From assembly GCF_000344155.1 (NCBI RefSeq), contig NZ_BAOQ01000004.1, positions 1 through 64,000 on the forward strand: a DNA stretch of 64,000 nt. The letters run 5' to 3'. A program made the translations under genes and the position numbers. This DNA comes from Gordonia paraffinivorans NBRC 108238. GTDB lineage: Bacteria; Actinomycetota; Actinomycetes; Mycobacteriales; Mycobacteriaceae. The notes beneath the pieces are model-generated. The model was not told the DNA's origin, searched no databases, and was given only the letters and a program-made list of their open reading frames with translations. Positions 19,943 to 63,075 of the stretch are shown in pieces. Numbering within the stretch: the stretch's first letter is position 1; every line of letters starts with the position of its first letter.

Positions 19943-20062
19943 ATGTCGACGGGTATGGCGATGTTCATCCGCGAGTGGCCGATGGCCGACCCCGGTTGCC
20001 GGGGAGGGCTCCTGAATCCGACCCGCCCCGAGCCGGTCACATCGAGCGCCACCGGTTCCTGA
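19943..20062 (+). CDS. small hypothetical protein (39 residues) before the HNH gene
   Basis: A short frame beginning MSTGMAMFIREWPMADPGC with an unusually strong ribosome site (AAGGGAGGTGG, six bases before the ATG). It ends in a Pro/Ser/Thr-rich tail. It lies 55 bases before the HNH endonuclease gene on the same strand and could be a leader peptide or a real small protein. The upstream gap (19771-19942) contains a loose inverted repeat, CGATAA at 19855 and TTATCG near 19890. No family was recognised. Confidence 0.45.
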   Translation: MSTGMAMFIREWPMADPGCRGGLLNPTRPEPVTSSATGS

Positions 20063-20117
20063 GGTCATGAGCCTCGATGGTCGGCGCAGTCACCCGCCCA
20101 CGCATCGAGGAGCATCC

Positions 20118-20615
20118 ATGACCATCTTCGTCACGAATGCGGGCTTACAGATCCTCGCCCGCGTCACCTGGCGCCGCGCCGCGGTGCTGCTGACCACCGA
20201 GGTCGCGCGCAACGTCGAGGGCACACCCCTGGTGCGTGTCGTCCACTCGCCCACGGTGTCGCTGCCGATCCACAAGGTGGTGGCGATCAAGCACAACGCC
20301 TACCGCCCGTTCTCCGGCAAGACCATGGATTCCTACGCGTCCAATGCGACGATCCTGCGCCGGGATCAGTGGATCTGCGCCTACTGCGACGGCCCCGCGG
20401 ACACCGTCGACCACATCGTCCCGGTGTCCCAGGGCGGGCCCAGCACGTTCGGCAACCAGGTGGCGGCATGCAAGTCCTGCAACGGGTTCAAGGCGAACCG
20501 GACCCCGCGGCAGGCGGGCATGGCGTTGCGGCATGCCCCGTTCGTCTACGACCCGTGGGCGGCGGACCAGAAAGAGGTCTGGGAGATGTTCATGCTGCAC
20601 CCCAAGACCGCCTGA
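20118..20615 (+). CDS. HNH endonuclease
   Basis: A 165-residue protein with a complete HNH-type zinc fold: Cys87-x-x-Cys90 (CAYC), the Asp98-His99 metal/catalytic pair in VDHIVPVSQGG, Asn113, and Cys118-x-x-Cys121 (CKSC). The first 80 residues contain no recognised domain. Solitary HNH proteins of this type are common in actinobacterial chromosomes and nick or cut DNA; the biological role is not known. The ATG at 20118 follows GAGGAG; an upstream ATG at 20067 would add 17 residues. Confidence 0.88.
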   Translation: MTIFVTNAGLQILARVTWRRAAVLLTTEVARNVEGTPLVRVVHSPTVSLPIHKVVAIKHNAYRPFSGKTMDSYASNATILRRDQWICAYCDGPADTVDHIVPVSQGGPSTFGNQVAACKSCNGFKANRTPRQAGMALRHAPFVYDPWAADQKEVWEMFMLHPKTA

Positions 20616-20638
20616 TCCGCCGCCCCGGCGTCAGTTGT

Positions 20639-23245
20639 TCAGCCTGCGGGCTTCACCTTCGTGGCGTTCACCGTCGAGGCGAGGATGCGCGGGATGTTGT
20701 AGAGCGGTCGGCTCTGGTTCCACAGCTGCTCGTACGGAGTGGTGAGCTGGCGGTTGAGGGCCGCGCGGTCGTGCTTGGCCTGGTAGGTGTACCGCGGCAG
20801 CAGCTCGCTGGTGACGAAGGTCCAGCGCTCGCTGAAGATCGACCAGTCCCACGAGGGGATGCCGAGCTGGACCTCGGTCTTGCCGGCGCCCGCGACGTCG
20901 GTCGTGAACTTGACCGGCCGGAACTCACGAAGAGCCGGGACACCGGCGACGGACGGGGAGCCCGCGAGCGTCTTCATGTAGGTCAGCGCCTCGCCGACGC
21001 CGTTCTTGTAGCCGCGGCACTGGTCCCACAGGGTGCCGACGCAGTATTCCTGTTCGCGGCGGAGCAGGTCGGCGTTGCCGCGCGCGATGCGAGACGAGTC
21101 GCCGGAGGCCACGTCCTCCCACGCGGTCATGGTCCGGTCGTCGATGATCTCCGCGGCATGCATCTCGCGGATGCCCGTCAGTCCGGTGCGCACGTAGGTG
21201 AGGTGCTGGGTCATCATGTCCTGGTAGATGGCCTTCTGCATCACGAGGACCTTGCGCACGAACCAGCCGAGGTCGTTCGGGGTGATCTTGTCGGCGTGGG
21301 TCGCCACTGCGCGCAGGCCGGACGGCAGGGCCTTCTGCGCGGCGATTCCGTAGCGCAGTCCGACGTTGGAGATGATGGTGCGGGAGAGCTGCGCGATGCC
21401 GGGAAGCTCGTAGATGAACTTGCCGAGCTCCAGATCCTCGATGCCCGAGCCGAAGTCGGCGCCGACCAGGCCGCCCATGCCGGCCCACTGCAGCTCGTCG
21501 TGACGCAGCTGGAAGTTCCGGTAGTAGTTGTACGACTTGATCATATTGGGCTTGCACCGGGCCAGTGTCGTGCCGGGGTCCCAGGTGGCCAGGTCGATCC
21601 CGGATTCCTTGGTGCACTGGACGAGACGCAACTGGTAGAGCAGCGCCGCGTAGCGCTTGGGCGCGAGGCCCCGTGCGCGGGCCTGGGAGACCAGTGCCTC
21701 GAGGTCGTATGGGAGTCGCGGGTGAACGCCGCCGCGGGTGACGCCCCTTTTTTCAGCTTCGCGTCGATCCAGTCGATGGTCTGCATGCCGAAGAGGTCGG
21801 TCGTCCACCGGTAGGTGTTCGTGATCAGTTCGGTGTCATCGCATTTCGCGGGGACGTAGGTGACCTTGGTGCCCAGGTCCCGGTAGCGCTGGACCAGCTT
21901 GCGCATGTCGGCGGCCGGTGTCACGGACATGAACGAACCGTCCTCGCCGCAGGAGGTGATCAGGGTCGGCGCCTGCGGACCGTACTTGTCGGTGCCCATG
22001 ATGTTGTCGGCGTACGCGTACTGGAAGTCCTTGATCTCGGCGGGGTTCTGGTTGCCCTTGAACAGGGGCTCGAACCGCTCGAAACCGAAGACGAAGTAGC
22101 CGTAGGTCTGGCACATCGTCTTCCACGCCGCGGCCTGTGCTCGGCCGAGCTCGTTGAGGTGCTTGTCGAGATTCATCGACGGGTAGGACTCGTTGAGTCC
22201 CACGATGGTGGCGAATCCGAACGCCGACGCCATCGAGCCGTTGGAGAAGTTCACGAACTGCTTCTGGTCGGCGTTGAAGTTCTGCAGGACCACCGCGCCG
22301 ACGTTGAGCTCGGGGTAGTACCAGGGCTGGTACTCGGCGGCGTAGCCGGCGCCGTTGCCGCCGCCGGCGATGCCGAAGAAGCCGACCGGCTGCTTCGGGT
22401 TCAGGCCGAGCGACTTGACCTGGTAAGCGGCGCGCAGGCCGTTGAGCAGCGCCATCCCCGCGACGCGGCCGGCGAAGACCTCGGACACCCCGTTCGGGCC
22501 GGGGTTCCCGCTGTTGCCGATGTCGGTGATGACGACGCCATAGCCCTTGCCGAACATCTGGGCCAGGGGGCCGAGGGCCGACCAGGCCGACGCCTCGGAG
22601 AAGACGCCGCCGCTCCACTGGGTGGATGGGTGGCACCGGGCGCCGAGGCTGTCATTGGCCTCCTGATACGCGATCAGCTTCCGTTTGCTGTTCTTGATCC
22701 CGTCCCGCAGGATCATGATGACGCCGGTGCTGACGTTCTTGGAGCCGTCGAGACGCTCGGTCACGTACATGGTCATGTACGCGTCGATCGCGCCAGGCGT
22801 GGTCCCGGCGACGAACGTCGTCGCGAACTGCATCGGGAACTTCTGGACCTTGAGCAGCGTGCCGGTGCTTCGTTGCCGGTCAGCTTGGGTTACTTGTAGA
22901 AGTCCCGGTACCCGAGGAGGCCGGTGAACTGCTCCCACGGGCTGGTGACGCTGCTGGTCTTGACATCTCCAGCACGTACCCGTTGAGGATCGAATCCGGT
23001 CGCGGAGTGGTGACCAGGTGCGCATCCGGGTCCGAGTTGGCGGCCTTCAGCTTCGCGACGCTGGGCGTCGGCTGCGCCGCCACCCGATCCAACTTCGCCA
23101 ATGTCCTTCGCTCGGATGGCGTTTCCTCGTATGGCGCCGCCGACGCGGTGGCGGCGAACATCCCGCCGGTCAGCACGGTCGAGGCGACCGCCACACAGCT
23201 GGACAGACGCACGAGTGCGCGCCTGCTCCCCAAGAAACTCTTCAT
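20639..23245 (-). pseudogene. secretory-lipase-like protein, broken by three frameshifts
   Basis: Four overlapping frames join into one product of about 869 residues. Frame one (23245 to about 22966) starts MKSFLGSRRALVRLSS and carries a signal peptide ending ATASA. A shift near 22966 leads to VTSPWEQFTGLLGYRDFYK, a second near 22892 leads to TQADRQRSTGTLL and the lipase core, and a third in the run AAAAAAGGGG near 21740 leads to the C-terminal half. Each is a one-base loss. The core resembles the LIP secretory lipase family, but the nucleophile elbow reads GIAGGG (Ala for Ser, codon at 22366-22368). The C-terminal half, with YCVGTLWDQCRG, is of unknown function. It is either a decayed gene or has assembly errors. 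Confidence 0.75.
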
Positions 23246-23259
23246 TCAACCCCCAGGCA

Positions 23260-23273
23260 TTACCGGCCGGTAA
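23260..23273. promoter_or_regulatory. 14-base palindrome in the lipase-like gene promoter
   Basis: TTACCGGCCGGTAA, perfectly self-complementary, 15 bases before the start of the secretory-lipase-like gene. The form is typical of a TetR-family operator. No TetR gene is adjacent. Confidence 0.45.
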
Positions 23274-23339
23274 CGATAGCGATACAGATATTGACTCTGG
23301 CAAATCAAATGAGACGGATCACAACTGTGGTCTCAGAAT

Positions 23340-24023
23340 CTACTTCGGCAGCGGTTCCTTGCCGCGTTCCCGGAGAGCCATGGTCATCTGGCCGAGTTCG
23401 TTGCCCTGGTCGCCGATCATGCTCAGCGCCAACTGCTTCGTCGCCTGGCCCGAACGCGGGTCGTTGTAGGCGGCCCGGGCCATCTCGATGCCGGCCCGGT
23501 GGTGGCGGATCATCAGCTGCAGGAACAGTGTCTCCGCCTCGTCTCCCCGGAGGGTCGACAGCCGGCCCATCTCGTCGGCGCTCGCGAGGCCCGGCATCGG
23601 CGCGTCCCGGGGCGAACCCGGCGTCGCGCCGTCATGCGCGTGGGCCCCACCCTGCGACATCCAGGCCATGGGGGTCTCGGAGGTCTGCGGGATCCCGAAG
23701 AGCTGCAGCCAGCCCCGCATGGTGCCGTTCTCCGCGGACTGGGCGACGAGGATCTGGTCGGCCAGTCCGCGGATGGCCGGGTCGACGTCGGGTGCGGCGA
23801 GGACGGTGCGCGCCATCAGGATCGCCTGATCGTGATGCATCGACATGTCCTGCGCGAAACCGATGTCGGTGACGCTCAGCGACTTCGGCGATGTCGCTCC
23901 CGCATCATCCGACGCGAACGGTCGCCACACCGAGCCCACGACGATGCCGATCGCCAGCAGGAGTACCGCAAGCGAGGCCAGGCCGGCGAGCGGAAGCCAG
24001 GCGGGGCGGTGCGAATCGGTCAT
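23340..24023 (-). CDS. DUF305-family exported metal-related protein
   Basis: A 227-residue protein with one N-terminal transmembrane/signal segment (about 9-31) and a DUF305 (ferritin-like helical) domain. It has the paired motifs MSMHHDQAILMA near residue 60 and LMIRHHRAGIEMA near 175, whose His residues suggest metal binding. A His/Gly-rich loop (GGAHAHDG) lies between. The ATG at 24023 overlaps the stop of the LVIVD-repeat gene (ATGA), so the two are coupled and likely work together in the envelope. The biochemical role is not established. Confidence 0.85.
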   Translation of the reverse strand: MTDSHRPAWLPLAGLASLAVLLLAIGIVVGSVWRPFASDDAGATSPKSLSVTDIGFAQDMSMHHDQAILMARTVLAAPDVDPAIRGLADQILVAQSAENGTMRGWLQLFGIPQTSETPMAWMSQGGAHAHDGATPGSPRDAPMPGLASADEMGRLSTLRGDEAETLFLQLMIRHHRAGIEMARAAYNDPRSGQATKQLALSMIGDQGNELGQMTMALRERGKEPLPK

Positions 24024-25623
24024 CCCAGGTAGGAGTCCTGATCCGGGGGCGGCGTGTACACGCGGCTGCTGAGTTCGAGTGCGTAGAAGCCGCCGTCGCC
24101 ACATGTCACGAAGATCTTGTTGCCGCGGAACTCCGGCGGTGAGAAGCACCAGTCGGTCGAGACGTCACCGCCGACCACCATTCCCGCGCGGGGGCCGACC
24201 ATCTCGTTCAGCTTCGCGCGCCCGTTCGCGAGAGACATTCCCAGGCTGAGGAACTCGATGGCCGGCACGCCGATGATCGACGCGACGACGTGGGGCGAGT
24301 TCGGGCGGGTGAGCACCGTGGCACCCTTCTGCGCCGGAGGGTTGTAGTAGGCGATCTCGCGGATGCGGTCGAGATCGCGGATGTCGAAGACCCGGATCCC
24401 CGAGGACTCCCACGAACAGGCCAGGGCCGTCGGGTCGGTCGGCCGGTCGACGGCGCAGTAGTGCGGGTTGCTGCCGAACAGCGAACCGCCCATCGAGGAG
24501 CGGAACTGGGTGTCGAGGTGCTCGGGCAGGTTGATCTCGAGCTTGAGTTGGGCTGCGTAGCGCGGTTTGTCGACGCGGGTGACGTCGAAGATCTTCACGC
24601 CGCCCGAGCCGCCCTCGTCGGCGGTGATCACATACGGCTTGCCGCCGTGGGTGATCGGGATCGAATGCTGATTGAGCTGCCCGTCGGGCCAGTGGTAGGC
24701 GGCGACGTGGCGGACCTGGGGATAGGGGTCCCGGCGCTGCACCGCGCTGATGTCGAGGATCGTGATCCCCATCATGTTCGACAGGTACATGCGGTTGCCG
24801 TCGGGGGAGATCCCGAAGCCGTGGCCGAGGAAGCTGTGCAGGCCCTGCCAGATCACCCGCGGGTTGCGGGGGTCGGAGACGTCGATGGCGCTCAGATGGC
24901 CCGGCGCGATCCCCGAGGCCCAGTACGTTCGTCCGTCGGGCGACCACCCGCCCTCGTGCGAGGTGAACGGGATCGGGTGGGCGAGTCCGCCGCCGCGGGC
25001 GTTGAGGAGCTTGGGGCGCTCGCAGTCGGAGATGTCGTACACCGCGAAAAAGCCTGCGCCCCAGACGAAGGGCACACCGGTGGCGGCGAGCAGCTTGCGC
25101 TTCTTGTTGACCTTCAGCGTCTCCCAGGTGCCGGCGCGCATCGCGGTGTCGGTGAGCGAGCCGACGATCCGCGGCTTGCGCGGGTCCTTGGCCGAGACGA
25201 TCCCGACGCCGGGTTGCGGCATGAAGTTGTTGCCGGGGAAGAGACTGCCGGTGTAGCTGCAGTGTTCGAAGGAGGCCGACACGATGCCACCGCGCCGCCG
25301 GTGACGTTGCCGAGCTTCGTCAGGTTGCAGTGGTAGCCGCGCTTGCTGCGGCCCGACAGGCGGTCCTCGGCGCTGACGTCACCCTGCAGTCCCGGTTCGG
25401 GCAACGATCCGGGACCGCACTCGGCCTTGGGCACCGCGGTCTCCGAGATGTCGGTGAACCAGTGGTTTCCGGCATTCGCGGGGGCGGCGACCAGCATCGT
25501 CGACGCGAGCGTCGCGCCGGCGAGGAGGCAGGTGGCCGCGTGCATCCGGCGTCGTAGTGCTGTGGCGCGGGTCTTGCGCGGAGTCCGCGCCTTCCCCGAC
25601 GATTCCAATCGTTCTGGCGTCAT
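24020..25623 (-). pseudogene. secreted LVIVD-repeat protein, broken by one frameshift
   Basis: The start at 25623 (ribosome site GGAGGGG) gives a signal peptide (basic MTPERLESSGKARTPRK, a hydrophobic stretch, then APANA). The frame reads to LTKLGNVTGG and then continues, after a one-base loss near 25288, in the next frame as SASFEHCSYTGSLFPGNNF to the natural end. The joined product is about 534 residues with repeated beta-propeller strands of the LVIVD type (GVGIVSAKDP, LSAIDVSDPRNPRV, GVKIFDVTRV). It is coupled to the DUF305 gene. It is either a recent inactivation or an assembly error; the rest of the frame is clean. Confidence 0.75.
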
Positions 25624-25635
25624 CGCCCCTCCGAT

Positions 25636-25651
25636 CGTGACGTCGATCACG
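25636..25651. promoter_or_regulatory. possible CRP/GlxR-type site before the LVIVD gene
   Basis: CGTGA-CGTCGA-TCACG matches the TGTGA-N6-TCACA pattern of CRP-family sites except at the outer base of each half. It lies 13 bases before the ATG, a position that would repress. Binding is inferred. Confidence 0.3.
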
Positions 25652-25775
25652 CTAGCGGGGCTGCTGAGACGGTGGGGTCGATTCGTCGAAAATCGCCGGT
25701 CACCGGGCTGTTTCGAGGGTCGTCGGTGGCTCGGCCGCCCCGGTCGCCACGCCTGTGCAGCCCGCGGGGGCCGGG

Positions 25776-27059
25776 TCAGAGGTCGGTGGCCGCGCGTTCG
25801 CGACTGCGCCGGTGCGCGAGAAACGCCAGCAGTGCCGCGACCAGGCATGCAATCGCCCCGACGCCGAGTCCGACGCGCGGATTGGTGGCCTCGATGACCG
25901 CGCCGATGAGCGGCCCGCCGATGGGCGTCGACCCCATGAACGCCACCGACCAGAGGGCCATCACCCGACCGCGCATGTGCGGCTCGGAGTTGAGTTGCAA
26001 GGTGGCGTTCCCGGTCGACATGAACGTCACGCTGAGCCAGCCGACGAGGAAGAGCGCGCAGATGGCGGTGAGGAGATCGGGGGCGAGGGCCGCGGCGCCG
26101 ATCGTGATGCCGAAGCCCAGGGCGGCGAGCGTGAGGGGACGCAGCCCGATGGTTCCGCGGGCGGCGACGACGAGGCCGCCGACGACCGCGCCCACGCCCA
26201 TCGCCGACGTCATGAACCCGAGTGCCTGCGGCCCGCCGTCGAAGACGAAGTCGGCCGCAGCCGTGAGGGTGACGGGAAAGTTGTAGGCGAGGGTGCCCAC
26301 GAGTGCCATGGTGGCCAGCGGAATCCACAGCGACGGATTGCCGCGCACGTAGCGCAGGCCCTCCCGGAGTTGCCCCTTCGCGCGCGGAACCGGGGTCTCC
26401 TGCGCGATCCTCGATCCGTCCAGTGCGATCAGGGAGGCCACGACGGCGACGAAGCTCACGGCGTTGATGGCGAAACACCAACCGGCCCCGACGAGGGTGA
26501 GCACGACGCCGGCCACCGCGGGACCGACGGCGCGAGCGGCGTTGACCATCACCGAGTTCAGCGTCACCGCGTTGCGGATCAGCGACATGCCGACGATCTG
26601 ATGGATGAACGCCTGTCGCGCAGGTTGTTCGAAGGCGTGCCCGAGTCCGAGCATCAACGCGAGGATCGCGACGTGCCACACCTCGACCACGCCGGTGACC
26701 GTGAGGACCGCGAGCGTCGCGGCGAGCGCGCCCATCAGCGCTTGCAGGACCGTCAGCAACCGGCGCCGGTCGACCCGGTCGGCGATGACACCCGCATAGG
26801 GGCCGATCAGCAGGACGGGTAGCGCCTGCAGGGCCACGATGAGCCCGAGGACCGACGCCGAACCGCTCAGCGTCAGCACCAGCCATGCCTGCGCGGTGGC
26901 CTGCATCCACGATCCGGTCATCGACACGGCCATGCCGACGTAGAAGATGCGGTAGTTGCGGATGCGGAGGGAGGCGAACACGCCCTGCCGGACAGGGGCG
27001 TCAGGTGCGGGTGGCGATGCGGCGACCCCGCTCGTCTCGGGTGCGCGGTCGTCGGACAT
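25776..27059 (-). CDS. MFS exporter (DHA3/EntS-like)
   Basis: A 427-residue major facilitator protein with about 12 transmembrane segments. It begins with a cytoplasmic Pro/Ala-rich tail and then FASLRIRNYRIFYVGMAVSMTGSWMQ, typical of the MFS_3 branch that includes enterobactin exporter EntS and macrolide pumps. Motif A is present as GVIADRVDRRR. The substrate is unknown. It lies upstream of the LVIVD gene on the same strand with a 152-base gap, so it is probably a separate unit. Confidence 0.88.
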   Translation of the reverse strand: MSDDRAPETSGVAASPPAPDAPVRQGVFASLRIRNYRIFYVGMAVSMTGSWMQATAQAWLVLTLSGSASVLGLIVALQALPVLLIGPYAGVIADRVDRRRLLTVLQALMGALAATLAVLTVTGVVEVWHVAILALMLGLGHAFEQPARQAFIHQIVGMSLIRNAVTLNSVMVNAARAVGPAVAGVVLTLVGAGWCFAINAVSFVAVVASLIALDGSRIAQETPVPRAKGQLREGLRYVRGNPSLWIPLATMALVGTLAYNFPVTLTAAADFVFDGGPQALGFMTSAMGVGAVVGGLVVAARGTIGLRPLTLAALGFGITIGAAALAPDLLTAICALFLVGWLSVTFMSTGNATLQLNSEPHMRGRVMALWSVAFMGSTPIGGPLIGAVIEATNPRVGLGVGAIACLVAALLAFLAHRRSRERAATDL

Positions 27060-62514: not shown

Positions 62515-63075
62515 ATGACGACGCAACGGGAGTTCGTGGAGGGACTGCGGAGGTGGGTGTGGCCTGCCGCCCTCGCCGGTGGACTCCTCCTGGTGCTGTT
62601 CGCACAGGTGGAGTGGGGAAGCACCGACGAGGGCGTGCAGCCGTCCATCACCGGCCTCGGGCGCGTCACCGTGCCGGGGGCGAGCGACGAGGACGTGGCC
62701 TACTTCTTCGCCGACAACACCGATCGTCCCGGTCTCACCGTGCTGGTCGCCGACATCGTCGTCGCGGTGGCCGCCGCGCTGGGATGGTGGCGGGAGCGCC
62801 TCCGTCCCGCGGCGATCGGTGTGATCGGGGTGGCGTCGGCGGTGGCGCTGGTGGCCGGGGCCATGGTGCTGGCCGATCCGGCGGCCCACCTCTTCACCGA
62901 TCGCGTGGCCCGAGCGCTCGATTCCGAGCTGCCGCGGATGGACCCGGGGTACGGGCTGATCGGGACCGTGGCCGTCGCGGCCGGGTTGATCGTCGTCGCC
63001 GTGTCGGCGATCGCGTCGATGATCAGGCCGCGAGCGCCGGAGCGGCGACTCACCCCAGGCGACGGATCGTCTTGA
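62515..63075 (+). CDS. hypothetical membrane protein (4 TMS)
   Basis: A 186-residue protein with four hydrophobic segments, about 15-35, 73-92, 98-120 and 145-166. The exported loop after segment 1 is polar (EWGSTDEGVQPSITGLG) and a short basic C-terminus (RPRAPERRL) should face the cytoplasm. No family was recognised. Its last 26 bases overlap the 3' end of the convergent NlpC/P60 gene. Confidence 0.7.
   Translation: MTTQREFVEGLRRWVWPAALAGGLLLVLFAQVEWGSTDEGVQPSITGLGRVTVPGASDEDVAYFFADNTDRPGLTVLVADIVVAVAAALGWWRERLRPAAIGVIGVASAVALVAGAMVLADPAAHLFTDRVARALDSELPRMDPGYGLIGTVAVAAGLIVVAVSAIASMIRPRAPERRLTPGDGSS

Follow-up and report, generated by a model that had tools for sequence, protein, structure and literature searches.

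Clustered gene breaks in a Gordonia paraffinivorans draft genome, probably local assembly errors, overlie an accessory pair encoding a CalA-fold protein without catalytic serine and a helical partner

In draft bacterial genomes, insertion, deletion and gap-closing errors usually occur at homopolymers and are spread through the assembly. The locus described here resembles such errors in that several kinds of break lie in short patches, continuous copies of the affected genes exist and codon bias is unharmed, and differs from them in that the breaks are concentrated in about 4.5 kb and that one of them has cost at least 177 nt. One affected gene belongs to the Candida antarctica lipase A (CalA) family (PF03583, LIP), and its relatives have alanine where the CalA-like enzyme 9jca has serine, in agreement with the alanine found at the same place in 9jc9, an S200A mutant. 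A second affected gene, for a helical protein referred to below as the partner, shares a weak match with DUF2515 (PF10720), a match that is also precomputed in five of the 120 listed relatives. The species is described as a rare cause of bovine mastitis (PMC9001696) and is listed elsewhere among non-pathogenic actinomycetes as a bioremediation agent (PMC12981095).

The assembly consists of 4,632,332 bases in 111 contigs, and the window, i.e., the whole stretch of 64,000 nucleotides that was analysed, corresponds to bases 1-64000 of contig 108. The order of genes on the minus strand is LVIVD (25623-24020), DUF305 (24023-23340), a LIP-family gene (from 23245) and an ORF at 21808-20639; the plus-strand gene at 20067-20615 is one that we take to be HNH from its sequence. 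The features of the locus, with residue numbers of the database proteins P0121, P0241 and P0001, are as follows.

25291..25623, minus strand: LVIVD gene, 5' piece, covering the leader and about the first 111 residues; P0121 residues 1-111, frame -2; GC3 0.86
24020..25291, minus strand: LVIVD gene, 3' piece in the other frame; P0121 residues 112-534, 98.8% identical; frame change near 25290
23340..24023, minus strand: DUF305 gene, unbroken and flanked by damaged genes; PF03713 E 5e-37 on ORF 23340-24149; start 24023 from the sequence letters
22949..23245, minus strand: CalA-type pseudo-lipase, piece 1 (leader and N-terminus), an ORF; P0241 residues 1-46, frame -1
22863..22964, minus strand: pseudo-lipase, piece 2, with in-frame TAA at 22892-22890; P0241 residues 47-80, frame -3
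21745..22863, minus strand: pseudo-lipase, piece 3, third frame, bulk of the domain; P0241 residues 81-452, frame -2; PF03583 E 1e-23 on ORF 21541-23025
21736..21755, minus strand: lipase/partner junction with an A6G4 run, where lipase homology stops and partner homology starts; stop, spacer, start and 59 codons missing
20639..21745, minus strand: partner gene minus its 5' end; P0001 residues 60-430, 98.4% identical; 3-residue in-frame gap near 21700
20067..20615, plus strand: presumed HNH-type gene, right-hand core neighbour; nearly abuts DUF305 in relatives

Given continuous and nearly identical proteins in databases, i.e., P0121 (534 aa, 99%), P0241 (455 aa, 98%) and P0001 (430 aa, 98%), the latter two in records that carry the name Gordonia paraffinivorans, the breaks were located by tblastn of these three proteins against positions 20000-26500 of the window. 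P0121 (LVIVD) aligned as two collinear pieces with a frame switch near 25290, and P0241 (lipase-like) as three pieces with frame switches near 22963 and at 22863-22869; the start of P0241 corresponds to an internal TTG in the window sequence. Within the middle lipase piece, the in-frame stop at 22892-22890 lies about 25 nt before the next frame change. P0001 aligned from residue 60 to its end in a single frame (21745-20642), interrupted by the in-frame gap near 21700, and no credible match to its residues 1-59 was found anywhere in 20000-26500. Lipase homology stops at residue 452 of the 455 of P0241, where P0001 homology begins, and in the window the two genes abut without stop, spacer, start or leader. 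Three genes, all for probably secreted proteins (LVIVD, lipase and partner), are damaged, while the DUF305 gene in between stays open.

A first-pass annotation of the same DNA had described four frameshifts in two genes, LVIVD and lipase. Both genes are indeed hit, and the frame changes near 25290 and 22963 were borne out by tblastn with relatives, continuous proteins being collinear across each of them; the site at 22892 is instead the in-frame TAA and that at 21740 the junction of the lipase with a third gene, the partner, which had been mistaken for the end of the lipase. The proposal that all four sites are equivalent to the loss of one base failed at two of them, since a stop codon stands beside a separate frame change at one and at least 59 codons plus a spacer are lost at the other. 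For the same reasons, joining the frames does not restore continuous protein. Comparison with the continuous copies thus replaces the picture of four single-base shifts in two genes by one of damage to three genes, with one stop codon and the loss of one gene's start.

Elsewhere in the bacterial family, the counterpart of ORF 20639-21808 is a gene of its own, mostly of 400-450 aa, and relatives of the partner were found in 63 of 151 genomes searched within this family. Thirty partner loci were counted (L002 and L033-L061, own-locus copies L001 and L003 being left out). A lipase-like gene was present near the partner in 27 of them and was not seen in the fetched stretches of L049, L051 and L056. 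The two genes were on the same strand in 26 of the 27 pairs and on opposite strands in one (L046), and the order on the same strand was lipase first in 3 (L033-L035) and partner first in 23. In these 26 pairs a stop follows the first gene, and the aligned parts are 178-422 nt apart. Because relatives keep the pair separate, whereas that of the window abuts with none of the intervening signals, the site at 21740 marks a loss larger than a single base. The A6G4 run there, previously read as a sign of an indel, sits at a junction of two genes and is therefore not the site of a simple homopolymer miscount; likewise, a single ancestral gene across 21740 is contradicted by tblastn, which shows two different proteins meeting that are separate genes in relatives.

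Changes specific to the window copy were polarised against 119 relatives for each protein, a comparison that reveals protein changes only, synonymous ones being invisible because the near-identical copies are available solely as proteins. Six such events were noted in the lipase, i.e., two frame changes, one stop and three substitutions, of which that at residue 140 is less sure. All six fell within residues 47-140 of 452, leaving 141-452 free of them; if six events were placed uniformly, P would be about 0.002 (lipase only, and by a test chosen after the data were seen). An earlier, unpolarised count of 10 events gave 7/20,000 shuffles. One of the substitutions is at a column where 119 of 120 aligned proteins agree, and at lipase residues 41, 42 and 308 the window carries the family's usual residue. 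The partner copy has lost its 5' end and three residues, and its single specific substitution is distant from both of these losses. In LVIVD, no substitution was clearly copy-specific, residues 12 and 439 not being polarisable.

GC3 was 0.85-0.94 in one frame for the six pieces of broken genes and for DUF305, and local GC at the break sites was ordinary. LVIVD is under purifying selection. Thus, dN/dS of the window LVIVD to six relatives was 0.11-0.14 as opposed to 0.015-0.09 among the relatives, and the same tendency was noted for the unbroken DUF305 gene (0.21-0.31 as opposed to 0.08-0.23). The marks of a decayed pseudogene, dN/dS near 1 (judged from LVIVD) and loss of codon periodicity, were not found.

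The surroundings of the pair were compared by a search for LVIVD-DUF305 in 59 genomes of the genus including the present one, 57 of which gave some match. Among the loci outside the present genome, the best 29 (L004-L032) were fetched. They show the block to be conserved in the genus, LVIVD being present in all 29 and a single open frame in 28 of them. The exception, the LVIVD gene of L030, has a frame change at about 2762, in a different place from that of the window. A distance of 11-124 nt separated HNH and DUF305 in 14 of these best 29 loci; HNH was not seen in the fetched stretch of the other 15, and no lipase or partner match was found in any of the 29 best fetched genus stretches. Since DUF305 and HNH nearly abut in relatives and no pair occurs in the 29 stretches, the pair (window 20615-23340) is an insertion between two core genes. 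A second lipase-partner pair, about 45-48% identical, is located on contig 79 of the same genome.

The frequency of breaks elsewhere in the genome was estimated by scanning the window and further pieces, 38 in all (675,514 b), for frame changes in codon usage, which returned 21 raw calls; 20 were inspected, the 21st being the same site, 63019, called again in L062, a piece that overlaps the window. Two of the 20 were inside the 5 kb locus, in which two further breaks, the short ones at the N-terminal end of the lipase, escaped the scan. The only other call in the window, at 63019, looked by eye like a gene end, in agreement with the annotation's statement that all other genes of the 64 kb are intact, a statement that holds only at the sensitivity of a scan that missed these two breaks. 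Outside the window (611.5 kb sample), two similar breaks were confirmed by Pfam halves. In thiM (hydroxyethylthiazole kinase; L064 about 18670, contig 79), one ORF covers profile positions 2-95 and an overlapping ORF in another frame positions 98-244; in an nSTAND1-WD40 gene (L078 about 17164, contig 60), the frame change is within the WD40 repeats and repeat mis-assembly is possible. The scan also called a hydrolase (L083, 3551), the L065 call had no Pfam match on either side, and the remaining inspected calls looked by eye like gene overlaps, gene ends or weak-scoring stretches.

Given that near-identical unbroken versions of the proteins exist, we consider it rather probable that the breaks at 20.6-25.6 kb are local consensus or assembly errors in the draft genome and not gene decay. 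Mixed changes that come in patches, separated by clean stretches and lying on either side of an unbroken gene, suggest poor local consensus more than decay. Where read coverage was low or poor, in a few places, bases would have been miscalled and small indels introduced; at 21745, a short gap may have been closed on the A/G run, the assembler dropping the spacer and the beginning of the following gene. Underneath these errors would lie a two-gene accessory unit between two core genes. The choice between decay and assembly indels offered in the first-pass annotation thus stands, with error better supported by the clustering of changes, the continuous 98-99% relatives, the retained codon bias and the purifying selection on LVIVD, as well as by the unbroken gene in between and the thiM and nSTAND1-WD40 breaks. 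On the other hand, only two breaks were confirmed in 611.5 kb, and with the sampled remainder mostly clean such error would need to be unusually local. Also counting against error are the size of the loss at the junction (the spacer and no fewer than 177 nt besides), which exceeds the usual base-call error, the ordinary local GC, which gives no reason for poor coverage there, the LVIVD dN/dS on window pairs above that among relatives and the one partner-specific substitution outside the patches.

The opposite interpretation, a recent and real inactivation in which a deletion fused the lipase 3' end to the partner and the useless pair and nearby LVIVD then gathered indels and a stop, is less likely, if a serious contender. 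Loss of the pair could be tolerated, because it is accessory (none of the 14 genus loci showing both neighbours has it between DUF305 and HNH) and a second copy is present on another contig. The lesions are also diverse, among them a stop codon and a deletion where a short A/G run lies. However, the copy-specific changes are clustered and not spread across dead genes, LVIVD, present in the 29 best genus loci, has a break but no other clearly copy-specific protein change, and codon bias is intact in all pieces, although very recent decay would leave no trace of that sort. We regard as doubtful the wider proposal that mycolic-acid bacteria possess an uncharacterised envelope system, in which a serine-less secreted CalA-fold protein and a Tat-exported all-helical protein of unrecognised fold would jointly bind or ferry lipids without hydrolysis, and that this strain truly lost one copy by a gene-fusing deletion. 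Old pseudogenes in long decay would account for several lesions in one locus but are very improbable in view of protein identities of 98-99% to continuous copies (two of them named as one species), the high GC3 of all pieces and the selection on LVIVD. Least credible is programmed frameshifting, by which ribosome slippage at the A6G4 run would yield a lipase-partner fusion: the homopolymer run at the junction and the one-step difference between the two frames would fit, but all 27 pairs seen in relatives are separate genes, the product would remain blocked by the stop upstream and by two further changes of frame, and the partner would lose its export signal.

With local assembly error as the favoured explanation, gene loss, gene fusion or decay of envelope proteins should not be read from the draft assembly at this locus, and the healthy pair, a conserved lipase fold without nucleophile and a partner that matched no solved fold, becomes the more interesting object. 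The partner piece matched DUF2515 with 16.5 bits, below the curated cut-off of 24.3. Some of its relatives are named 'Tat pathway signal protein', and the leader of P0001 (first 59 residues) looks twin-arginine-like. PF08309 repeats were not detected in the window LVIVD piece and are precomputed for several relatives (e.g., P0124 and P0130). The lipase-like protein matched the LIP domain (PF03583) above the curated cut-off and has the CalA fold, but the nucleophile serine of the GxSxG elbow is missing: all 120 aligned proteins (P0241-P0360) carry alanine there, at residue 246 in P0241. With alanine at this position, it is classed as a CalA-fold protein and not filed as an active lipase. After P0241 residue 362, in the C-terminal part where the catalytic histidine of CalA would be expected, no column had histidine in 40% or more of the 120 sequences. 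In this unit, the CalA-fold protein, which lacks the catalytic serine, is probably secreted and its helical partner probably exported by the Tat route; the two are predicted to bind lipids together, without catalysis, in the mycolate envelope. One relative (P0260) is already called 'Putative inactive lipase' in UniRef, and genes of this family, annotated as lipase, usually adjoin the gene for the helical partner.
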